In this document: positions 17,024 to 29,946 of the stretch, one piece after another
Layout of the letters: every line of letters starts with the position of its first letter
Position numbering within the stretch: position 1 is the first letter of the stretch
From: a virus
Reading direction: 5' to 3' (one strand)
Virus record (IMG/VR): IMGVR_UViG_3300003322_000020
Coordinates: 1-44,945 of that record
DNA: 44,945 bases
Position numbers and translations under genes: made by a program
The notes under the pieces: model-generated
What the model saw: the letters and a program-made list of their open reading frames with translations, nothing else
The model's database searches: none
Told to the model about the DNA's origin: nothing

Positions 17024-17065
17024 TAGGCAATGTGTGCGCCTAGCCTGCGATTGTTAGGCAATGTG
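17024..17065. repeat. Direct repeat TAGGCAATGTG, 31 bp apart
   Basis: Two exact 11-bp copies begin at 17024 and 17055, about three helical turns apart, in a locally AT-richer stretch. Iteron-like binding sites for a regulator or replication protein are plausible. Confidence 0.6.
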
Positions 17066-17229
17066 CTGCGTTTGACGTGGATCTGAAGGTGGGACAGTCC
17101 ACCCTGCCTCAGGATCGAAGGCCATACGCGCGTGTCTTCCACCTCTCACGTGACGTGCAGGCACCTCTAGCAAACGCAGGGAACATGGATGGATGATCAT
17201 GGAATCACTGGAGTCTGAAGATCTTTTGG

Positions 17230-17692: not shown

Positions 17693-17721
17693 TTGACAAG
17701 CGGGCGGCATCGGAGGATAGT
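17693..17721 (+). promoter_or_regulatory. Rightward promoter, sigma-70/HrdB type
   Basis: A perfect -35 (TTGACA, 17693-17698), a 17-bp spacer and GATAGT (17716-17721) as -10 match the main vegetative promoter class of actinomycetes. It points toward the early block. Transcription would start near 17728, giving a leader of about 550 nt that includes the rrn-leader-like element and several hairpins. Confidence 0.65.
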
Positions 17722-18844: not shown

Positions 18845-18886
18845 GGGCGAATGGTTGTAGGCTCGGTTCGATTCCGGCCCGCTCAC
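18845..18886 (+). ncRNA. Anticodon-less tRNA-like element, copy 1
   Basis: Acceptor-like helix GGGCG/CGCTC (18845-18849 with 18880-18884, one G-U). The 5' linker has a GGT D-loop-like core. T-arm: loop TTCGATT (18867-18873) on a stem with one C-C mismatch. ACT follows the helix, then after two bases the hairpin GGCGCA-CGG-TGCGCC (18889-18903), then AGGAGG and the next ATG. It is the most divergent of the TTCGA-loop copies but keeps the same layout. Confidence 0.6.
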
Positions 18887-18888
18887 TA

Positions 18889-18903
18889 GGCGCACGGTGC
18901 GCC
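18889..18903 (+). other. Cassette hairpin 1
   Basis: GGCGCA and TGCGCC pair perfectly around CGG, directly after the tRNA-like element and 10 bases before the AGGAGG of the next gene. Confidence 0.6.
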
Positions 18904-18923
18904 TTGGCTTACAGGAGGACATC

Positions 18924-19322
18924 ATGAACGCTTACGACGTCGCCCTCACGCTGTCCGTCATGGCTCGTGCCAAGGAGGACGGGACGGTCGACTCGTTCGC
19001 CAACCTGGACGGTTTCGAGCAGGACTCTCTGCCCAAGACCGGGTTCTACGTGGGTGGCGTGCGTCCCTCGCTGGTGATCTCCAACATCGCTGACCTCGAC
19101 CGGGGTGACCTGGCCTGGTTCATCGGTGGCACGGAGGCTCGCTACTTCGGCGTGTGGACGGACACCGAGACCGGCATGATCTACTTCGACGCCGTGACTC
19201 ACGTTGACAACTTCCACGACGCATTCTCTCTGGGTGCGGAGCGTGGAGAAATCGCCATCTGGGACATCGAGCGTAACGAGGAGATCCGTGTCAAGGCAGA
19301 TCAGGGTACAGAGGCCGAGTAA
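18924..19322 (+). CDS. Early protein, unknown function
   Basis: A 132-residue acidic protein. It starts with a helical segment, then FANLDGFEQDSLPKTGFYVG, and has a repeated pattern of aromatic residues (ARYFGVWTDTETG, IYFDAVTHVDNFHDAFSLG). No cysteines or membrane segments. A strong AGGAGG 6 bases before the ATG sets the start. Flanked by tRNA-like cassettes on both sides. Confidence 0.65.
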   Translation: MNAYDVALTLSVMARAKEDGTVDSFANLDGFEQDSLPKTGFYVGGVRPSLVISNIADLDRGDLAWFIGGTEARYFGVWTDTETGMIYFDAVTHVDNFHDAFSLGAERGEIAIWDIERNEEIRVKADQGTEAE

Positions 19323-19358
19323 ACCTCGGCCTCAGCCCGAACCGGACACCCGGACGCC

Positions 19359-19386
19359 TAGTGGCAGGCCCTTGCCCTACTAGGTG
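19359..19386 (+). other. Inverted repeat CCTAGT...ACTAGG
   Basis: CCTAGT and ACTAGG flank an inner GCA/TTGC pairing. The hairpin lies between the 18924-19322 gene and tRNA-like copy 2. It could be a processing or attenuation hairpin. Confidence 0.45.
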
Positions 19387-19414
19387 ACCGGCAGAGCCCC
19401 CTAGGGTGGGGGCT

Positions 19415-19458
19415 GCCCCTGGAGTAGCCACATTCGAGTGCAAGTCTCGACAGGGGCG
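19415..19458 (+). ncRNA. Anticodon-less tRNA-like element, copy 2 (7+5 bp form)
   Basis: GCCCCTG/CAGGGGC gives a full 7-bp acceptor-like helix (19415-19421 with 19451-19457). TCGAG-TGCAAGT-CTCGA forms a 5-bp T-arm whose loop differs from a canonical T-loop (TTCAAGT) by one base, keeping C56, A58 and T60. The 12-nt linker is GAGTAGCCACAT. The total of 12 stacked pairs equals that of a real tRNA acceptor/T domain. No perfect hairpin follows directly; a GGAG ribosome site is 16 bases downstream. Confidence 0.6.
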
Positions 19459-19483
19459 CTGGCTTACTGGATTGGAGATCATC

Positions 19484-19702
19484 ATGGCCGAATACACCAC
19501 TGTGCGTGGATCCCGAGTGATCCGCGTCAGCAAGGTGGGCGGCGGCACTCTCGGACGCAAGTACGAGGGTGACTGGGAGGTCACTGTCTCCGACAGTGGC
19601 ACGGTTGTGCTGGATGACATCATCAGCACCGGTACGCCCAAGTTCTACCACGAGGTCGCAGACCTTGCGGAGGACTTCGCCGACGACGCAGATGAGGTGT
19701 GA
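19484..19702 (+). CDS. Small early protein, unknown function
   Basis: A 72-residue protein, beta-rich in the first 50 residues (TTVRGSRVIRVSKVGGG, YEGDWEVTVSDSGTVVLDD) with an acidic C-terminal helix (HEVADLAEDFADDADEV). The acidic tail recalls DNA-mimic proteins, but that is only a resemblance. The start is set by the ATG after GGAGATC. Confidence 0.65.
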   Translation: MAEYTTVRGSRVIRVSKVGGGTLGRKYEGDWEVTVSDSGTVVLDDIISTGTPKFYHEVADLAEDFADDADEV

Positions 19703-19704
19703 TC

Positions 19705-19791
19705 ATGAGTGACAAGAAGTGCACGTGCAACGGCATGGAGTTCCTGTGGAACCGCTGGGTCTTCACTGGCCGCTGCACATGTAAGAAGTGA
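19705..19791 (+). CDS. 28-residue CxC/CxC micro-protein
   Basis: Starts two bases after the previous stop. Cysteine pairs CTC (6-8) and CTC (24-26) flank a Trp-rich core (FLWNRWVF), a minimal zinc-binding arrangement. A Lys-rich end follows. Cys pairing and tight gene packing make it more likely than chance. Confidence 0.5.
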   Translation: MSDKKCTCNGMEFLWNRWVFTGRCTCKK

Positions 19792-19802
19792 CGAGAGTCA
19801 CA

Positions 19803-19844
19803 GGGTGACCGGCAGGCATCAAGGTTCGAGCCCTTGACACCCAC
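19803..19844 (+). ncRNA. Anticodon-less tRNA-like element, copy 3
   Basis: GGGTG/CACCC (19803-19807 with 19838-19842). The 11-nt linker ACCGGCAGGCA is the core consensus. The T-arm is 6 bp, TCAAGG/CCTTGA, around TTCGAGC (19825-19831). It starts 11 nt after the upstream stop. The stems stack to 11 bp. A 14-bp self-complementary hairpin at 19880-19893 follows later than in other copies. Confidence 0.75.
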
Positions 19845-19879
19845 GCATTCGCCGCCTAGTGTGGTGTTCGCACAGGGAT

Positions 19880-19893
19880 CCGCTGATCAGCGG
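19880..19893 (+). other. Cassette hairpin 3
   Basis: CCGCT-GATC-AGCGG, 5-bp stem (14-bp palindrome), 18 bases before the GAAAGG ribosome site of the next gene. Confidence 0.5.
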
Positions 19894-19924
19894 GCAACAG
19901 TAAATCCAACCGAAAGGTACTGTC

Positions 19925-20293
19925 ATGCGACTGATCAATGCTCAGAACGAGGAGATCCACCAGGGTTCTCGGGTCGTGGCCATTCAGGGCCGCGAGACGG
20001 GGCAGATCTGGAACTTCTCCCACGTTGTTGAGCACCCCATCGATGGGCACCGGGTCCACGTGACCCGTCGCCACCCGCGTATGGGACACGTCCACCGCGA
20101 GTTCCACCCTGCGATCTTCGGACTGCACGTGGTGGTGGACATCACCTGGCGTAAGCACCTGGTCAACAAGGTGCACCACGTCCGGACAAAGTTCGACGAC
20201 TACCTGCTTGCGGGTATCGTCGCACTCCTGCCGCTCGCACTGTTCGAGCACTACCACATTGCGGAGCGGCTGCCCGAGATCCTTGGGCACTGA
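19925..20293 (+). CDS. Early membrane protein, unknown function
   Basis: A 122-residue protein. Residues 1-60 are beta-rich (INAQNEEIHQGSRVVAIQGR, GQIWNFSHVVE) and could form an SH3-like domain, followed by a His-rich region. A hydrophobic helix at about 98-113 (YLLAGIVALLPLALF) suggests a membrane anchor near the C-terminus. GAAAGG precedes the ATG. No family recognised. Confidence 0.65.
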   Translation: MRLINAQNEEIHQGSRVVAIQGRETGQIWNFSHVVEHPIDGHRVHVTRRHPRMGHVHREFHPAIFGLHVVVDITWRKHLVNKVHHVRTKFDDYLLAGIVALLPLALFEHYHIAERLPEILGH

Positions 20294-20301
20294 GCTTGAT
20301 C

Positions 20302-20344
20302 GGGTGAACGGCATACAGTCTGGGTTCGAGTCCCGGCCACCCAC
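20302..20344 (+). ncRNA. Anticodon-less tRNA-like element, copy 4
   Basis: GGGTG/CACCC (20302-20306 with 20338-20342), linker AACGGCATACAG, T-arm CTGGG-TTCGAGT-CCCGG (one U-G), then ACT and after one base the hairpin GCGCCC-CTTGA-GGGCGC. It starts 8 nt after the upstream stop. Confidence 0.75.
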
Positions 20345-20345
20345 T

Positions 20346-20362
20346 GCGCCCCTTGAGGGCGC
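20346..20362 (+). other. Cassette hairpin 4
   Basis: GCGCCC and GGGCGC pair perfectly around CTTGA, starting one base after the ACT end of tRNA-like copy 4. AAGGAGG of the next gene begins 6 bases later. Confidence 0.65.
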
Positions 20363-20377
20363 TAGCAAGGAGGAATC

Positions 20378-20506
20378 ATGGACACCGTAGCTCACATCAT
20401 GGCCATGCCCTACGTGGGCCCTGGCATCATCGCCGCCGTCTCCTTGACGGCAGCATGGGTGATGGTCTACGTTCAGCACAAGCGGCACCCGGAGGACTTC
20501 TCATGA
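20378..20506 (+). CDS. 42-residue membrane protein
   Basis: A perfect AAGGAGG site precedes the ATG. The product has one hydrophobic segment (about 11-32, PGIIAAVSLTAAWVMVYV) and a charged end (QHKRHPEDFS). It overlaps the next start (ATGA), so the two small membrane proteins are probably co-translated and may work as a pair. Confidence 0.6.
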   Translation: MDTVAHIMAMPYVGPGIIAAVSLTAAWVMVYVQHKRHPEDFS

Positions 20507-20580
20507 TGGTCGCACTAGCTCTCGTGCTGTACCTGGGGACGCCCGCCCTGGGCGGCTTCCTGATCTACCGTAGCTGGTGA
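20503..20580 (+). CDS. 25-residue membrane micro-protein
   Basis: The ATG overlaps the previous stop (ATGA). The product is almost entirely one hydrophobic helix (MVALALVLYLGTPALGGFLI) ending in YRSW. It ends 6 bases before the next tRNA-like element. Its role is unknown; a partner for the preceding membrane protein is a guess. Confidence 0.5.
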   Translation: MMVALALVLYLGTPALGGFLIYRSW

Positions 20581-20586
20581 CAGCTA

Positions 20587-20628
20587 GCCTGACTGGCAGG
20601 CACCTACGTTCGAGCCGTAGGCAGGCAC
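20587..20628 (+). ncRNA. Anticodon-less tRNA-like element, copy 5
   Basis: GCCTG/CAGGC (20587-20591 with 20622-20626), linker ACTGGCAGGCA, 6-bp T-arm CCTACG/CGTAGG around TTCGAGC. Compared with copies 3, 6 and 7, both helices have changed sequence with pairing kept. ACT then leads into hairpin GAGACG...CGTCTC. Confidence 0.8.
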
Positions 20629-20629
20629 T

Positions 20630-20650
20630 GAGACGCTACAGGGGCGTCTC
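20630..20650 (+). other. Cassette hairpin 5
   Basis: GAGACG and CGTCTC pair perfectly around a 9-base loop, one base after tRNA-like copy 5 and 3 bases before the GAGGAGG site. Confidence 0.6.
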
Positions 20651-20666
20651 TCTGAGGAGGACAGTG

Positions 20667-21122
20667 ATGAGCACCAAGTTTCGTACCTGGTACATGGACG
20701 ATGCTGTGTTCAACCTCGCCGAGGTGATCGAGACCGCAAAGAAGCGGCTGGCCAACGTCGATTTCGACACCCTGGTCGGCACTGGCTTCTCTGGGGGACT
20801 TGTGATCCCCACCCTCGCACTCCAGATGGGCAAGAAGTTCGTCCTGATCCGCAAGGAGACGGACGACTCGCACCACGGCAAGGGTCGCCTGCTCGGTGAG
20901 CTGGGTGACAAGTGGATCCTGGTGGACGACTTCGTGTCGTCCGGCAAGACCCGCAGGCGTGTGATCGAGAAGATCAACGAGGCCGTCGAAATGTGGGGCG
21001 AGGAGGGTCGACCTGAGATGGTCGGCGAGTACATGTACAAGGCGTTCGACAACTACGACCAGGAGGTCCCTGGGCGCTTCCTGCCCTACGACCCCCAGTG
21101 GTCGTGTGAGCCGCGTTGGTGA
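20667..21122 (+). CDS. Phosphoribosyltransferase-like protein
   Basis: A 151-residue type I PRTase fold: the PRPP-binding loop is ILVDDFVSSGKT (84-95, Asp87-Asp88 and SSGKT), preceded by a beta strand at 58-62 and by GTGFSGGLVIP (38-48), which resembles the PPi loop. The family transfers phosphoribose between PRPP and a base or related acceptor; the substrate cannot be read from the sequence. Such enzymes in phages may salvage bases or modify host metabolites. The start is the ATG 6 bases after GAGGAGG. Confidence 0.8.
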   Translation: MSTKFRTWYMDDAVFNLAEVIETAKKRLANVDFDTLVGTGFSGGLVIPTLALQMGKKFVLIRKETDDSHHGKGRLLGELGDKWILVDDFVSSGKTRRRVIEKINEAVEMWGEEGRPEMVGEYMYKAFDNYDQEVPGRFLPYDPQWSCEPRW

Positions 21123-21132
21123 CGACGTGGTA

Positions 21133-21174
21133 GCCAGACCGGCAGACACCTGGGTTCGAGTCCCAGGCTGGCAC
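21133..21174 (+). ncRNA. Anticodon-less tRNA-like element, copy 6
   Basis: GCCAG/CTGGC (21133-21137 with 21168-21172), linker ACCGGCAGACA, 6-bp T-arm CCTGGG/CCCAGG around TTCGAGT (21155-21161), then ACT. It is followed after one base by a perfect 8-bp hairpin. Fully paired 5+6 bp stack. Confidence 0.82.
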
Positions 21175-21175
21175 T

Positions 21176-21196
21176 GGACGCCCTCCCTGGGCGTCC
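21176..21196 (+). other. Cassette hairpin 6
   Basis: GGACGCCC and GGGCGTCC pair perfectly (8 bp) around TCCCT. It ends 9 bases before the AGGAGG of the lipoprotein gene. Without a U-run it is unlikely to stop transcription. Confidence 0.65.
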
Positions 21197-21214
21197 TGGC
21201 CTACAGGAGGACAT

Positions 21215-21640
21215 ATGCGTAAGAGCCGTATCGTCGCTGCTACCCTTGCGGCGATCACTCTGGGCATCACCGCGACTGCGTGTTCGAGCGATGCTGACGT
21301 GGCGTCTGAGAACGTCAGCAAGGCTGCCGACAACTTCGAGGTCAACCGTCGGATCGTCGTGTTCAACGGCATCACCGACAAGTACCTGCTGGAGATCGAA
21401 GGCGCCTGCTCTCTCACGGTTGACAGCAAGGACTCTCAGCTCGAACTGATCTGCAAGACCGGTCCGGGCGAGTACGTGAAGGACTTCGTCGGCCTCTCGG
21501 ACAACGTCTCGTACTTCGTGGAGCAGGGCGAGCCTGTCAAGGCGTCGGCCTACCACTACCGCAAGACGTTCAAGCCGCAGTCCATCCTGCCGGACGTGGA
21601 CTTCCGTGGCAGCACGGATGACACGCCGCGCAACCAGTAA
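21215..21640 (+). CDS. Phage-encoded lipoprotein
   Basis: A 141-residue protein with a lipoprotein signal: basic start (MRKSR), hydrophobic core, then a lipobox-like TACS with Cys23 as the acylation site. The mature part is beta-rich (NFEVNRRIVVFNGITDKYLL) with Cys pairs that may form disulfides. To my knowledge similar lipoproteins occur widely in actinophages without a proven function. A surface lipoprotein made early could block superinfection. AGGAGG stands 5 bases before the ATG. Confidence 0.8.
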   Translation: MRKSRIVAATLAAITLGITATACSSDADVASENVSKAADNFEVNRRIVVFNGITDKYLLEIEGACSLTVDSKDSQLELICKTGPGEYVKDFVGLSDNVSYFVEQGEPVKASAYHYRKTFKPQSILPDVDFRGSTDDTPRNQ

Positions 21641-21646
21641 CAGGTA

Positions 21647-21688
21647 GGGTGACCGGCAGGCACCGGGGTTCGAGCCCCCGGCACCCAC
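21647..21688 (+). ncRNA. Anticodon-less tRNA-like element, copy 7
   Basis: GGGTG/CACCC (21647-21651 with 21682-21686), linker ACCGGCAGGCA (identical to copy 3), 6-bp T-arm CCGGGG/CCCCGG around TTCGAGC, then ACT. It starts 6 nt after the lipoprotein stop. The T-stem differs at several positions from copy 3, always in pairs. Confidence 0.82.
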
Positions 21689-21689
21689 T

Positions 21690-21712
21690 AGTGCAGGCAA
21701 AGTGCATGCACT
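21690..21712 (+). other. Cassette hairpin 7
   Basis: AGTGCA (21690-21695) pairs with TGCACT (21707-21712), with an alternative TGCATGCA palindrome inside. GGAG of the next gene follows. Confidence 0.5.
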
Positions 21713-21729
21713 GTTCCATGGGAGTGGAC

Positions 21730-22257
21730 ATGATTGGCAACGCGGAAGAGGCTAAGTTCATCCACGAGTGGCACCACAGCCCGCGTCCCCGATGGGACGC
21801 CACGGCTCCAAATGCCCCCGAAGGCTGGACATACCTGGGCAGTGGCTGCTATCGTGCTGGATACCTCGCCCCCAGTGGGGCGGTGTACAAGGTGCAGCAG
21901 AATGCCTCGGATAACAGTCTGTGGCAGACCAACCTGGGTGAGTGGAACACGTGGAAGCACCTGTACCTCACCTGCAAGATGCCGAAGTACTCTCGCCTGC
22001 CCCGCCTCTCGTTCTACGAGGTGCAGGACAACGGCGTGGGTGTCATCGCCATCGAGAAGCTGAGCAACGCCTACACCTACTACGGCACCTTCAAGGGTGA
22101 CGATGGTCAGGAGCATCGTTGGTCACAGGTCTGCAATGCGATCACCTCCGCCACTGGCGTGGGCGATCTCTACGGAGACAACCTCATGATCGACGAGAAG
22201 AACACTCTGCTTGTCCCGACCGATCTCGGCTGCGCGCCGAGTAGCGACGGGTCTTGA
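21730..22257 (+). CDS. Protein-kinase-fold protein
   Basis: A 175-residue protein with kinase landmarks: a glycine-loop-like YLGSGCYRAGYLAPSG (35-50), a lysine in VYKVQ (Lys54), a catalytic-loop-like GDLYGDNLM (145-153, Asp and Asn in HxDxxxxN-like spacing) and DLG (165-167) in place of DFG. It is much shorter than full kinases and ends just after DLG, so it may be a minimal kinase, an aminoglycoside-kinase-like enzyme or a degenerate pseudokinase. The start at 21730 is set by GGAG; the frame is open further upstream into the tRNA-like element. Confidence 0.65.
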   Translation: MIGNAEEAKFIHEWHHSPRPRWDATAPNAPEGWTYLGSGCYRAGYLAPSGAVYKVQQNASDNSLWQTNLGEWNTWKHLYLTCKMPKYSRLPRLSFYEVQDNGVGVIAIEKLSNAYTYYGTFKGDDGQEHRWSQVCNAITSATGVGDLYGDNLMIDEKNTLLVPTDLGCAPSSDGS

Positions 22258-22263
22258 CGGGCG

Positions 22264-22307
22264 GCCCTGAATGGCATACTCTGGGGTTCGAGTCCCCAGC
22301 AGGGCAC
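22264..22307 (+). ncRNA. Anticodon-less tRNA-like element, copy 8 (6+6 bp)
   Basis: GCCCTG/CAGGGC (22264-22269 with 22300-22305), linker AATGGCATACT, 6-bp T-arm CTGGGG/CCCCAG around TTCGAGT (22287-22293), then ACT. Twelve stacked base pairs match the length of a real acceptor/T stack. Hairpin GCCGCC-AGGTA-GGCGGC follows after one base. This is the best-paired copy. Confidence 0.85.
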
Positions 22308-22308
22308 T

Positions 22309-22325
22309 GCCGCCAGGTAGGCGGC
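22309..22325 (+). other. Cassette hairpin 8
   Basis: GCCGCC and GGCGGC pair perfectly around AGGTA, 5 bases before the AAGGAG of the next gene. Confidence 0.65.
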
Positions 22326-22341
22326 GTGCAAGGAGCAAGTG

Positions 22342-25393: not shown

Positions 25394-25480
25394 GGGAGAG
25401 ATCGGTCGTTGGCTTGACCGGCGAGCTGTGCACCTCGCGACCTGTATGGGTCACCGGTGGTTCGAATCCACCCTCTCCCA
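25394..25480 (+). tRNA. Type II (long variable arm) tRNA-like gene, unusual anticodon loop
   Basis: An 87-nt element: acceptor GGGAGAG/CTCTCCC, D-arm GGT/ACC, anticodon stem GCGAG/CTCGC, variable arm GACC...GGTC, T-arm GGTGG-TTCGAAT-CCACC, discriminator A, no CCA. The anticodon loop is CTGTGCAC, eight bases instead of seven. Read from U33 the triplet would be GTG (His), but His tRNAs have short variable arms. The identity is therefore unclear: a Leu/Ser-type scaffold, a frameshift-suppressor-like tRNA or a non-decoding relative are all possible. Confidence 0.75.
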
Positions 25481-25481
25481 C

Positions 25482-29855: not shown

Positions 29856-29933
29856 GGGGCTGGAAGGTTTCGACGTCTGTGAAAGCCGCACGCGGACCGC
29901 AGACGGACACGGGTTCGATTCCCGTCAGCTCCA
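29856..29933 (+). ncRNA. tmRNA-like tRNA domain (mini-tmRNA)
   Basis: GGGGCTG/CAGCTCC (29856-29862 with 29926-29932) is a 7-bp acceptor stem with a G-U at the 3-70 position and discriminator A, the identity set of AlaRS and tmRNA. The 5' part continues GAAGGTTTCGAC, as in the stemless tmRNA D-loop. CGTCTG/CAGACG (29874-29879 with 29900-29905) corresponds to tmRNA helix 2. T-arm ACGGG-TTCGATT-CCCGT. Where tmRNA carries its reading frame and pseudoknots there are only 20 nt with a CCG/CGG mini-hairpin. No CCA is encoded. GGAGGT of the next gene follows at once. Confidence 0.75.
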
Positions 29934-29946
29934 CGGAGGTGATCCA

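Follow-up and report, generated by a model that had tools for sequence, protein, structure and literature searches.

The 44,945-nucleotide (nt) stretch of viral DNA studied here (IMG/VR record IMGVR_UViG_3300003322_000020, positions 1 to 44,945; the whole stretch is called the window below) carries in its intergenic gaps a set of repeated anticodon-less RNA elements of about 40 nt, for which the name transfer RNA (tRNA)-like element (TLE) is used. These elements are probably minimal tRNA mimics that punctuate a polycistronic early messenger RNA (mRNA) by means of host tRNA enzymes. The broader proposal, that they belong to an undescribed family of 40-nt tRNA elbows with which numerous tailed viruses infecting bacteria, and perhaps archaea, hijack host RNase P and RNase Z to turn polycistronic early mRNA into single-gene messages, stands in our estimate at about an even chance.

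Fold and tertiary contacts of the elements

A geometric scan of the window for an acceptor helix, a linker, a T-stem and a TTCRA loop returned six clean TLEs, all on the + strand; 10 Markov shuffles gave one match in total with a linker of TLE length. The six copies scored 51 to 64 bits with a covariance model (R1) that was trained on relatives plus the window copies, so that bit scores within the window are not independent and those in other phages mostly are. They are TLE 3 (19803 to 19842; 61.5 bits), 11 nt past a stop codon; TLE 4 (20302 to 20342; 51 bits), 8 nt past the stop; TLE 5 (20587 to 20626; 58.2 bits), 6 nt past it; TLE 6 (21133 to 21172; 62.9 bits), 10 nt past it; TLE 7 (21647 to 21686), which gave the top score (64.4 bits) and lies 6 nt past the stop; and TLE 8 (22264 to 22305), with an acceptor of 6 base pairs (bp) and 54.3 bits over 22265 to 22307. 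TLE 1 (18845 to 18884, + strand), located 44 nt past a stop codon and 39 nt ahead of the next start, reached 38.4 bits and combines a linker of a second class (AATGGTTGTAG) with the T-loop TTCGATT. The model found nothing else above 14 bits in the window. TLE 2 (19415 to 19457, + strand) was missed by R1 and was recovered with a UGCAA descriptor scan as a rarer T-loop variant in which AG replaces GG in the linker, a combination that recurs in other phages and agrees with the AG/UGCRA association described below. It is the least certain copy, because its minimum-energy fold does not favor the TLE structure. Thus, of the eight elements listed in a preliminary description of this DNA, all with coordinates correct to within 1 to 2 nt, six were recovered by geometry alone and 18845 as a second linker class, whereas 19415 stands only as the UGCAA variant.

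Linkers of the second class (GGTYGNA- or GGTTTTC-like) accompany ordinary tRNA T-loops (TTCGATT or TTCGACT) also in Mycobacterium phage Send513 (14487 and 14873) and in a further locus, L244 (15053 and 16369), and may represent a separate subfamily with contacts of its own.

Each TLE consists of an acceptor helix of 5 to 7 bp stacked on a T-arm of 5 to 6 bp, with an 11-nt linker. Of 340 copies, 297 have a combined stack of 11 bp and another 28 one of 12 bp. In 40 diverse sequences, 12 of the 13 proposed pairs varied on both sides with pairing kept. Since this set had been selected for pairing in the acceptor and the T-stem, the independent support for the fold comes from two other sources, namely, a pattern test and three contacts that played no part in the selection. 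In the former, a DNA pattern fixing only the linker and T-loop, and imposing nothing on the helices, was searched; of the 209 IMG/VR matches listed (counts from this database are lower bounds), 198 formed 10 or more of the 11 helix pairs, compared with 4 of 118 in chromosomal contigs, whose matches are mostly due to chance and served as background only. Among the T-loop patterns tried in such scans, enrichment was observed for UUCRA and UGNRA and for no other loop.

The three contacts are tertiary ones. Linker positions 7 and 13 pair as C-G, A-U or G-C, and the partner of linker position 14 is base 29, the last of the T-loop (A-U, G-C, C-G or U-A), neither pairing having been required at retrieval. 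Linker position 9, the counterpart of G18 in tRNA, changes together with T-loop position 24, the counterpart of U55: GG occurred with UUCRA in 246 copies and AG with UGCRA in 16, while the combinations GG-UGCRA and AG-UUCRA were both absent (P = 7e-26, uncorrected for relatedness). Covariation P values are indicative, kinship among the sequences not being accounted for; the presence of different pair types inside single genomes nevertheless points to repeated events rather than to one inherited change. The conserved GG with UUCRA, and its swap to AG with UGCRA, match the G18-U55 and G19-C56 contacts by which a tRNA elbow is recognized. On the strength of the helix and tertiary covariation (7-13, 14-29 and the G18-U55 to A18-G55 swap), TLEs are best described as the top half of a tRNA, that is, an acceptor arm and an elbow devoid of D- and anticodon arms, in which the linker acts as the D-loop. 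The anticodon-less tRNA-like fold, the docking of the linker GG on the T-loop and the compensatory changes in the helix arms had all been read from the eight copies in the preliminary description; the first two are now backed by the pattern test, the covarying pairs and the GG/UUCRA and AG/UGCRA counts, and the third holds across hundreds of relatives.

An aminoacylation identity like G3-U70 was also sought and was discarded, a G-U at pair 3-38 being present in 6 of 257 copies. In one phage contig (L026, - strand), TLEs have 6- to 7-bp acceptors, a different tail and both the UUCRA and the UGCAA loop forms; their stacks are the closest to the 12 to 13 bp of true tRNAs.

This pattern of change bears on whether the repeat acts as DNA, for example as an operator or stoperator of a phage repressor, or as a recombination linker, and is merely hairpin-like. 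Intergenic stoperators have been reported for R4-like Streptomyces phages (PMC10276819), and shared linkers could aid gene shuffling. However, a stoperator is a conserved DNA sequence bound by the repressor, whereas in TLEs the helix sequence changes freely while the pairs, including the non-nested tertiary ones, stay. The family is also present in unrelated phages, and the repeated word of phage Joe, CACTGTCAC, differs from the TLE and is not among the commonest words of phage Lika. A DNA element is accordingly highly improbable. The word of Joe, CACTGTCAC / TCACACTGTC, occurs separately near early genes of that phage and is possibly the stoperator of its repressor.

Gene borders, 3' junction and flanking hairpins

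The position of TLEs relative to genes was regular. Among the 340 non-redundant copies, 92% lay no more than 60 nt past the stop codon of an open reading frame, with a peak at 6 to 8 nt, and 80% had a stop upstream and a ribosome-binding site (RBS)/start downstream, compared with 18% of random places. The next start was found at a median of 42 nt from the TLE. All copies shared one strand in each of the 47 loci with at least three copies (47/47), as many as 12 copies were present per locus, and in annotated phages they cluster in gaps within a single region of the non-structural genes. These counts support the intercistronic place given in the preliminary description.

In the window, a consensus scan revealed a promoter-like site (TTGACA-17-GATAGT; 17693 to 17721, + strand) upstream of the putative early operon, and the TLEs lie 1 to 5 kb downstream of it. 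The other promoter-like match (21826) falls inside a gene, and about one chance match is expected in a region of this size. No intrinsic terminator (GC stem plus T run) was found between 17600 and 22800, and the gaps that contain TLEs were free of promoter- and terminator-like sites in the scan. Given this arrangement, the genes around the TLEs would be early and would form one operon.

The bases that follow the acceptor helix were R73 (A or G) in 317 of 340 copies and C74 in 319, with C75 in 15. All 36 tRNA genes tested from a Streptomyces genome encode C74, and 8 of them encode C75; having the same C74-rich, C75-poor pattern, the 3' border of a TLE resembles the end of a host tRNA gene that lacks an encoded CCA. 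A T at position -1 is rare (5/340), so that N-1 would seldom pair with A73. Among the features important to RNase P is the 3' RCC motif, and use of the normal cut site is favored when N-1 and the discriminator are unpaired (PMC12710915). In bacteria, this enzyme also cuts phage RNAs, precursor transfer-messenger RNA (pre-tmRNA) and operon mRNAs (PMC11143913).

Small hairpins abut the TLEs on both sides. A hairpin ending no more than 3 nt 5' of the TLE (H1) was present in 34% of copies, against 7% in shuffled sequences and 11% at other gene ends, and a stop triplet lies inside 96 of 115 such hairpins. A hairpin starting no more than 5 nt 3' of the TLE (H2) was present in 55%, against 11% in shuffled sequences and 14% at control gene ends. 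In the window, all on the + strand, folding placed H1 before TLE 3 (19788 to 19801, overlapping the stop codon and 1 nt from the TLE), before TLE 5 (20571 to 20586, abutting the TLE, the hairpin loop containing the stop codon TGA) and before TLE 6 (21110 to 21131, including the stop codon and 1 nt from the TLE). H2 follows TLE 1, where the sequence GGCGCA-CGG-TGCGCC (18889 to 18903) precedes the RBS, and was predicted by folding after TLE 4 (20346 to 20362), TLE 5 (20630 to 20650), TLE 6 (21176 to 21196), TLE 7 (21689 to 21713) and TLE 8 (22308 to 22326).

Processing by tRNA enzymes best accounts for the following traits: location on the sense strand, an elbow, a junction resembling that of the host and hairpins that would shield both new RNA ends. 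According to this model, host RNase P would recognize the elbow, the acceptor helix and the R73-C74 tail and cut on the 5' side of the TLE. The upstream mRNA would thereby be freed with a new 3' end just past its stop codon, often just past H1. The mRNA downstream would start at the TLE itself or, should RNase Z also cleave past the discriminator, at H2, with the RBS next in line. In this way, host enzymes alone would convert the early genes into separate messages with protected ends. We consider cleavage by RNase P likely and cleavage by RNase Z possible, and a benefit for mRNA stability or balance may follow. Intercistronic processing sites had been one of the suggestions of the preliminary description, and this is now the best-supported reading, given a sense-strand TLE in nearly every gap of this part of the operon, a junction like that of a host pre-tRNA and the hairpins; the cut itself is the step deduced from these traits.

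The strongest rival, although an unlikely one, is an effect on translation without cleavage, in which the TLE, lying in the 5' leader of the downstream gene, would bind the ribosome as a tRNA mimic and raise initiation. The median of 42 nt to the next start agrees with it, as does a tmRNA-like RNA of the window that directly precedes an RBS (see below), and tRNA-like leaders gave 2- to 6.3-fold higher expression in one study (PMC9142559). However, H2 sits between the TLE and the RBS, and the tight stop distance of 6 to 8 nt, the R73-C74 junction and H1 implicate the upstream side too. The hairpins, together with a stable GC-rich fold covering otherwise bare intergenic RNA, would also suit a barrier that stops exonucleases (3'-5' or 5'-3') or Rho where the RNA between genes is untranslated and that tRNA enzymes leave uncut. 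Such a barrier would need neither an exact tRNA elbow nor the G18-U55/A18-G55 swap nor C74, and we regard it as improbable.

Several observations weigh against processing by tRNA enzymes. The main biochemical doubts concern RNase P: the stack is mostly of 11 bp and not the 12 bp of tRNA, so that the cut could be shifted or weakened, and with C75 absent the contact with the enzyme would be partial. A clear H1 accompanies only a third of the copies. In the covariance model search, phiC31, like Gordonia phage Lucky10, showed no full-length TLE, which in the case of phiC31 also counts against the processing reading. Finally, there are tandem arrays, which plain gene punctuation does not need. These contain 4 to 6 TLEs about 105 to 140 nt apart, mostly without genes between copies, as in loci L048 (1600 to 3000, - strand) and L006 (6600 to 7100, - strand), and likewise in L040, L110 and L118; the filler separating the copies is GGCNNGGC-like.

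Geneless arrays such as those of L048 and L006, and loci holding as many as 12 copies, would agree with processed TLEs accumulating in trans to titrate EF-Tu, tRNA enzymes of the host or defense nucleases that target tRNA. Free small RNAs engaging tRNA enzymes were the other suggestion of the preliminary description. Nevertheless, in most loci each gap between genes has a single copy, and its distance from the stop is a preferred one, neither of which would be required in trans, and a TLE offers no anticodon to anticodon nucleases. The probability of a role in trans is accordingly low, and punctuation of the mRNA by tRNA enzymes remains the preferred reading.

Distribution and relation to known systems

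The search of other phages with a covariance model, which had been put forward as a check on the original eight copies, did yield matches. Nine copies were found in phage Joe, seven plus one weak in Lika, about 14 in Mycobacterium phage Send513, about 8 in Cborch11, 1 in Gordonia phage Rabbitrun and 2 in Riemerella phage GRAP2, whose host belongs to the Bacteroidota. Weaker matches were obtained in the haloviruses HHTV-2 (one) and HRTV-23 (two); these few copies could be a convergent form. A BLAST search with a consensus TLE hit 256 phage records, 142 of them covering at least 80% of the query; Streptomyces phages accounted for 113 of the 256, and the best matches fell in unannotated sequence. 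The TLE counts exclude BLAST matches that fell on the T-arm of an annotated tRNA, which occurred in phages of Gordonia, Aeromonas and Acinetobacter. Full-length matches of the model to real tRNAs were not seen, only partial ones to T-arms at about 14 to 18 bits. Among eight bacterial genomes searched with the model, five had no TLE, two had one, and one had five within 4 kb, a cluster that looks like a prophage. By these sequence searches, the family appears to span more than 100 further bacterial viruses and a few archaeal ones, laboratory phages included, and it is unannotated in the records examined. In Send513 (L245), annotated gene ends or starts overlap TLEs at 17039 to 17200, 17633 and 36297, and because of this overlap the gene calls at those sites are probably wrong.

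None of the window TLEs was matched by the tRNA family of Rfam (RF00005), even at E values up to 10, or called as a tRNA by ARAGORN. The nearest Rfam family was mascRNA-menRNA (RF01684), with 21.2 bits for TLE 8 and 18.1 bits for a second copy against a gathering threshold of 42.5, and Rfam 15 contains no family for TLEs. Likewise, no description of them was found in the openly licensed papers searched, and the phiJoe genome paper makes no mention of tRNA or intergenic structures.

Among known intergenic modules, the mobile regulatory cassettes of T4-type phages combine a promoter with a terminator-like stem-loop between small early hyperplastic genes; the TLE gaps of the window, in contrast, have no promoter-like site or U-tailed terminator. 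To our knowledge, the RNase P sites of operon mRNAs and of the phage C4 and M3 RNAs are individual and form no shared, repeated tRNA-elbow family. In these cases host RNase P acts on polycistronic and phage RNA, as proposed for TLEs (PMC11143913). The closest analogues appear to be the t-elements of plant mitochondria and the mascRNA of MALAT1. The former are tRNA-like structures at gene borders where cuts by RNase P and RNase Z define mRNA ends, and they are CCA tailed but not aminoacylated (PMC11658184). They share with TLEs the tRNA-like structure at a gene border on the sense strand; however, t-elements are organellar and homologous to whole tRNA genes, whereas TLEs are phage-borne 40-nt elbows that have a linker consensus and tertiary pairs of their own and whose cleavage is deduced. 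In MALAT1, a tRNA-like RNA is cut by RNase P and RNase Z, and a stabilizing structure just upstream protects the new 3' end (PMC12941219), which is comparable to the role proposed for H1. In contrast to the TLEs repeated between genes, the mascRNA-menRNA family (MALAT1/NEAT1) is eukaryotic and single copy and keeps D- and anticodon-like arms (a model of 56 positions). The yjdF riboswitch also places a tRNA-like elbow in an mRNA leader (PMC9142559), but it is ligand dependent, differs in architecture and is not an intergenic repeat. The intergenic repeats of halovirus HF2 (PMC8707807), considered on account of the wording "tRNA-like" and "intergenic repeat", are promoters and an attP site and were set aside.

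Further top-half RNAs in the window and significance

Tertiary covariation, flanking hairpins, the fixed stop-codon distance and the spread of the family all go beyond what had been noticed initially, as do two larger RNAs downstream on the + strand. The first (25394 to 25481) is a full-size tRNA-like RNA reported by ARAGORN as "tRNA-???"; its anticodon loop is abnormal (8 nt), its variable arm is long, and it ends in ACT like the TLEs. It comes after a + strand gene and a strong hairpin, GGGCCCCCGAAAGGGGGCCC. The second (29856 to 29936) is an 81-nt tmRNA-like RNA lying between two genes (Rfam tmRNA, 68.3 bits). It has no tag reading frame, and a strong RBS, GGAGGTGATCC, is located directly 3' of it. 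A gap-free 81-nt homologue, unannotated, is present among the tRNA genes of Streptomyces phage LuckySocke, and similar matches were found in GiJojo, pSt2308 and Shaeky. Such a tag-less mini-tmRNA might serve as a decoy that binds SmpB or as a signal for processing. That three structurally different RNAs occupy the same kind of place, with only the top half of tRNA in common, suggests that the top half is what counts.

Two of the genes between TLEs, both on the + strand, could be assigned. A phosphoribosyltransferase-like gene (20667 to 21122; PHROG 2068, E = 2.7e-27) lies between TLE 5 and TLE 6, and a gene like the recombination directionality factor Phage_VG64 (21215 to 21640; PHROG 478, E = 5.6e-54; PF25682, 180 bits) lies between TLE 6 and TLE 7.

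If TLEs are indeed cleaved, prokaryotic viruses would be using tRNA punctuation, and this processing code would work without a viral enzyme. TLEs would also supply minimal substrates of natural origin with which to test what part of a tRNA is read by RNase P, by RNase Z and by tRNA-modifying enzymes, and compact modules with which synthetic operons could keep genes apart. For the phages that bear them, such cleavage would explain why their early genes do not overlap.

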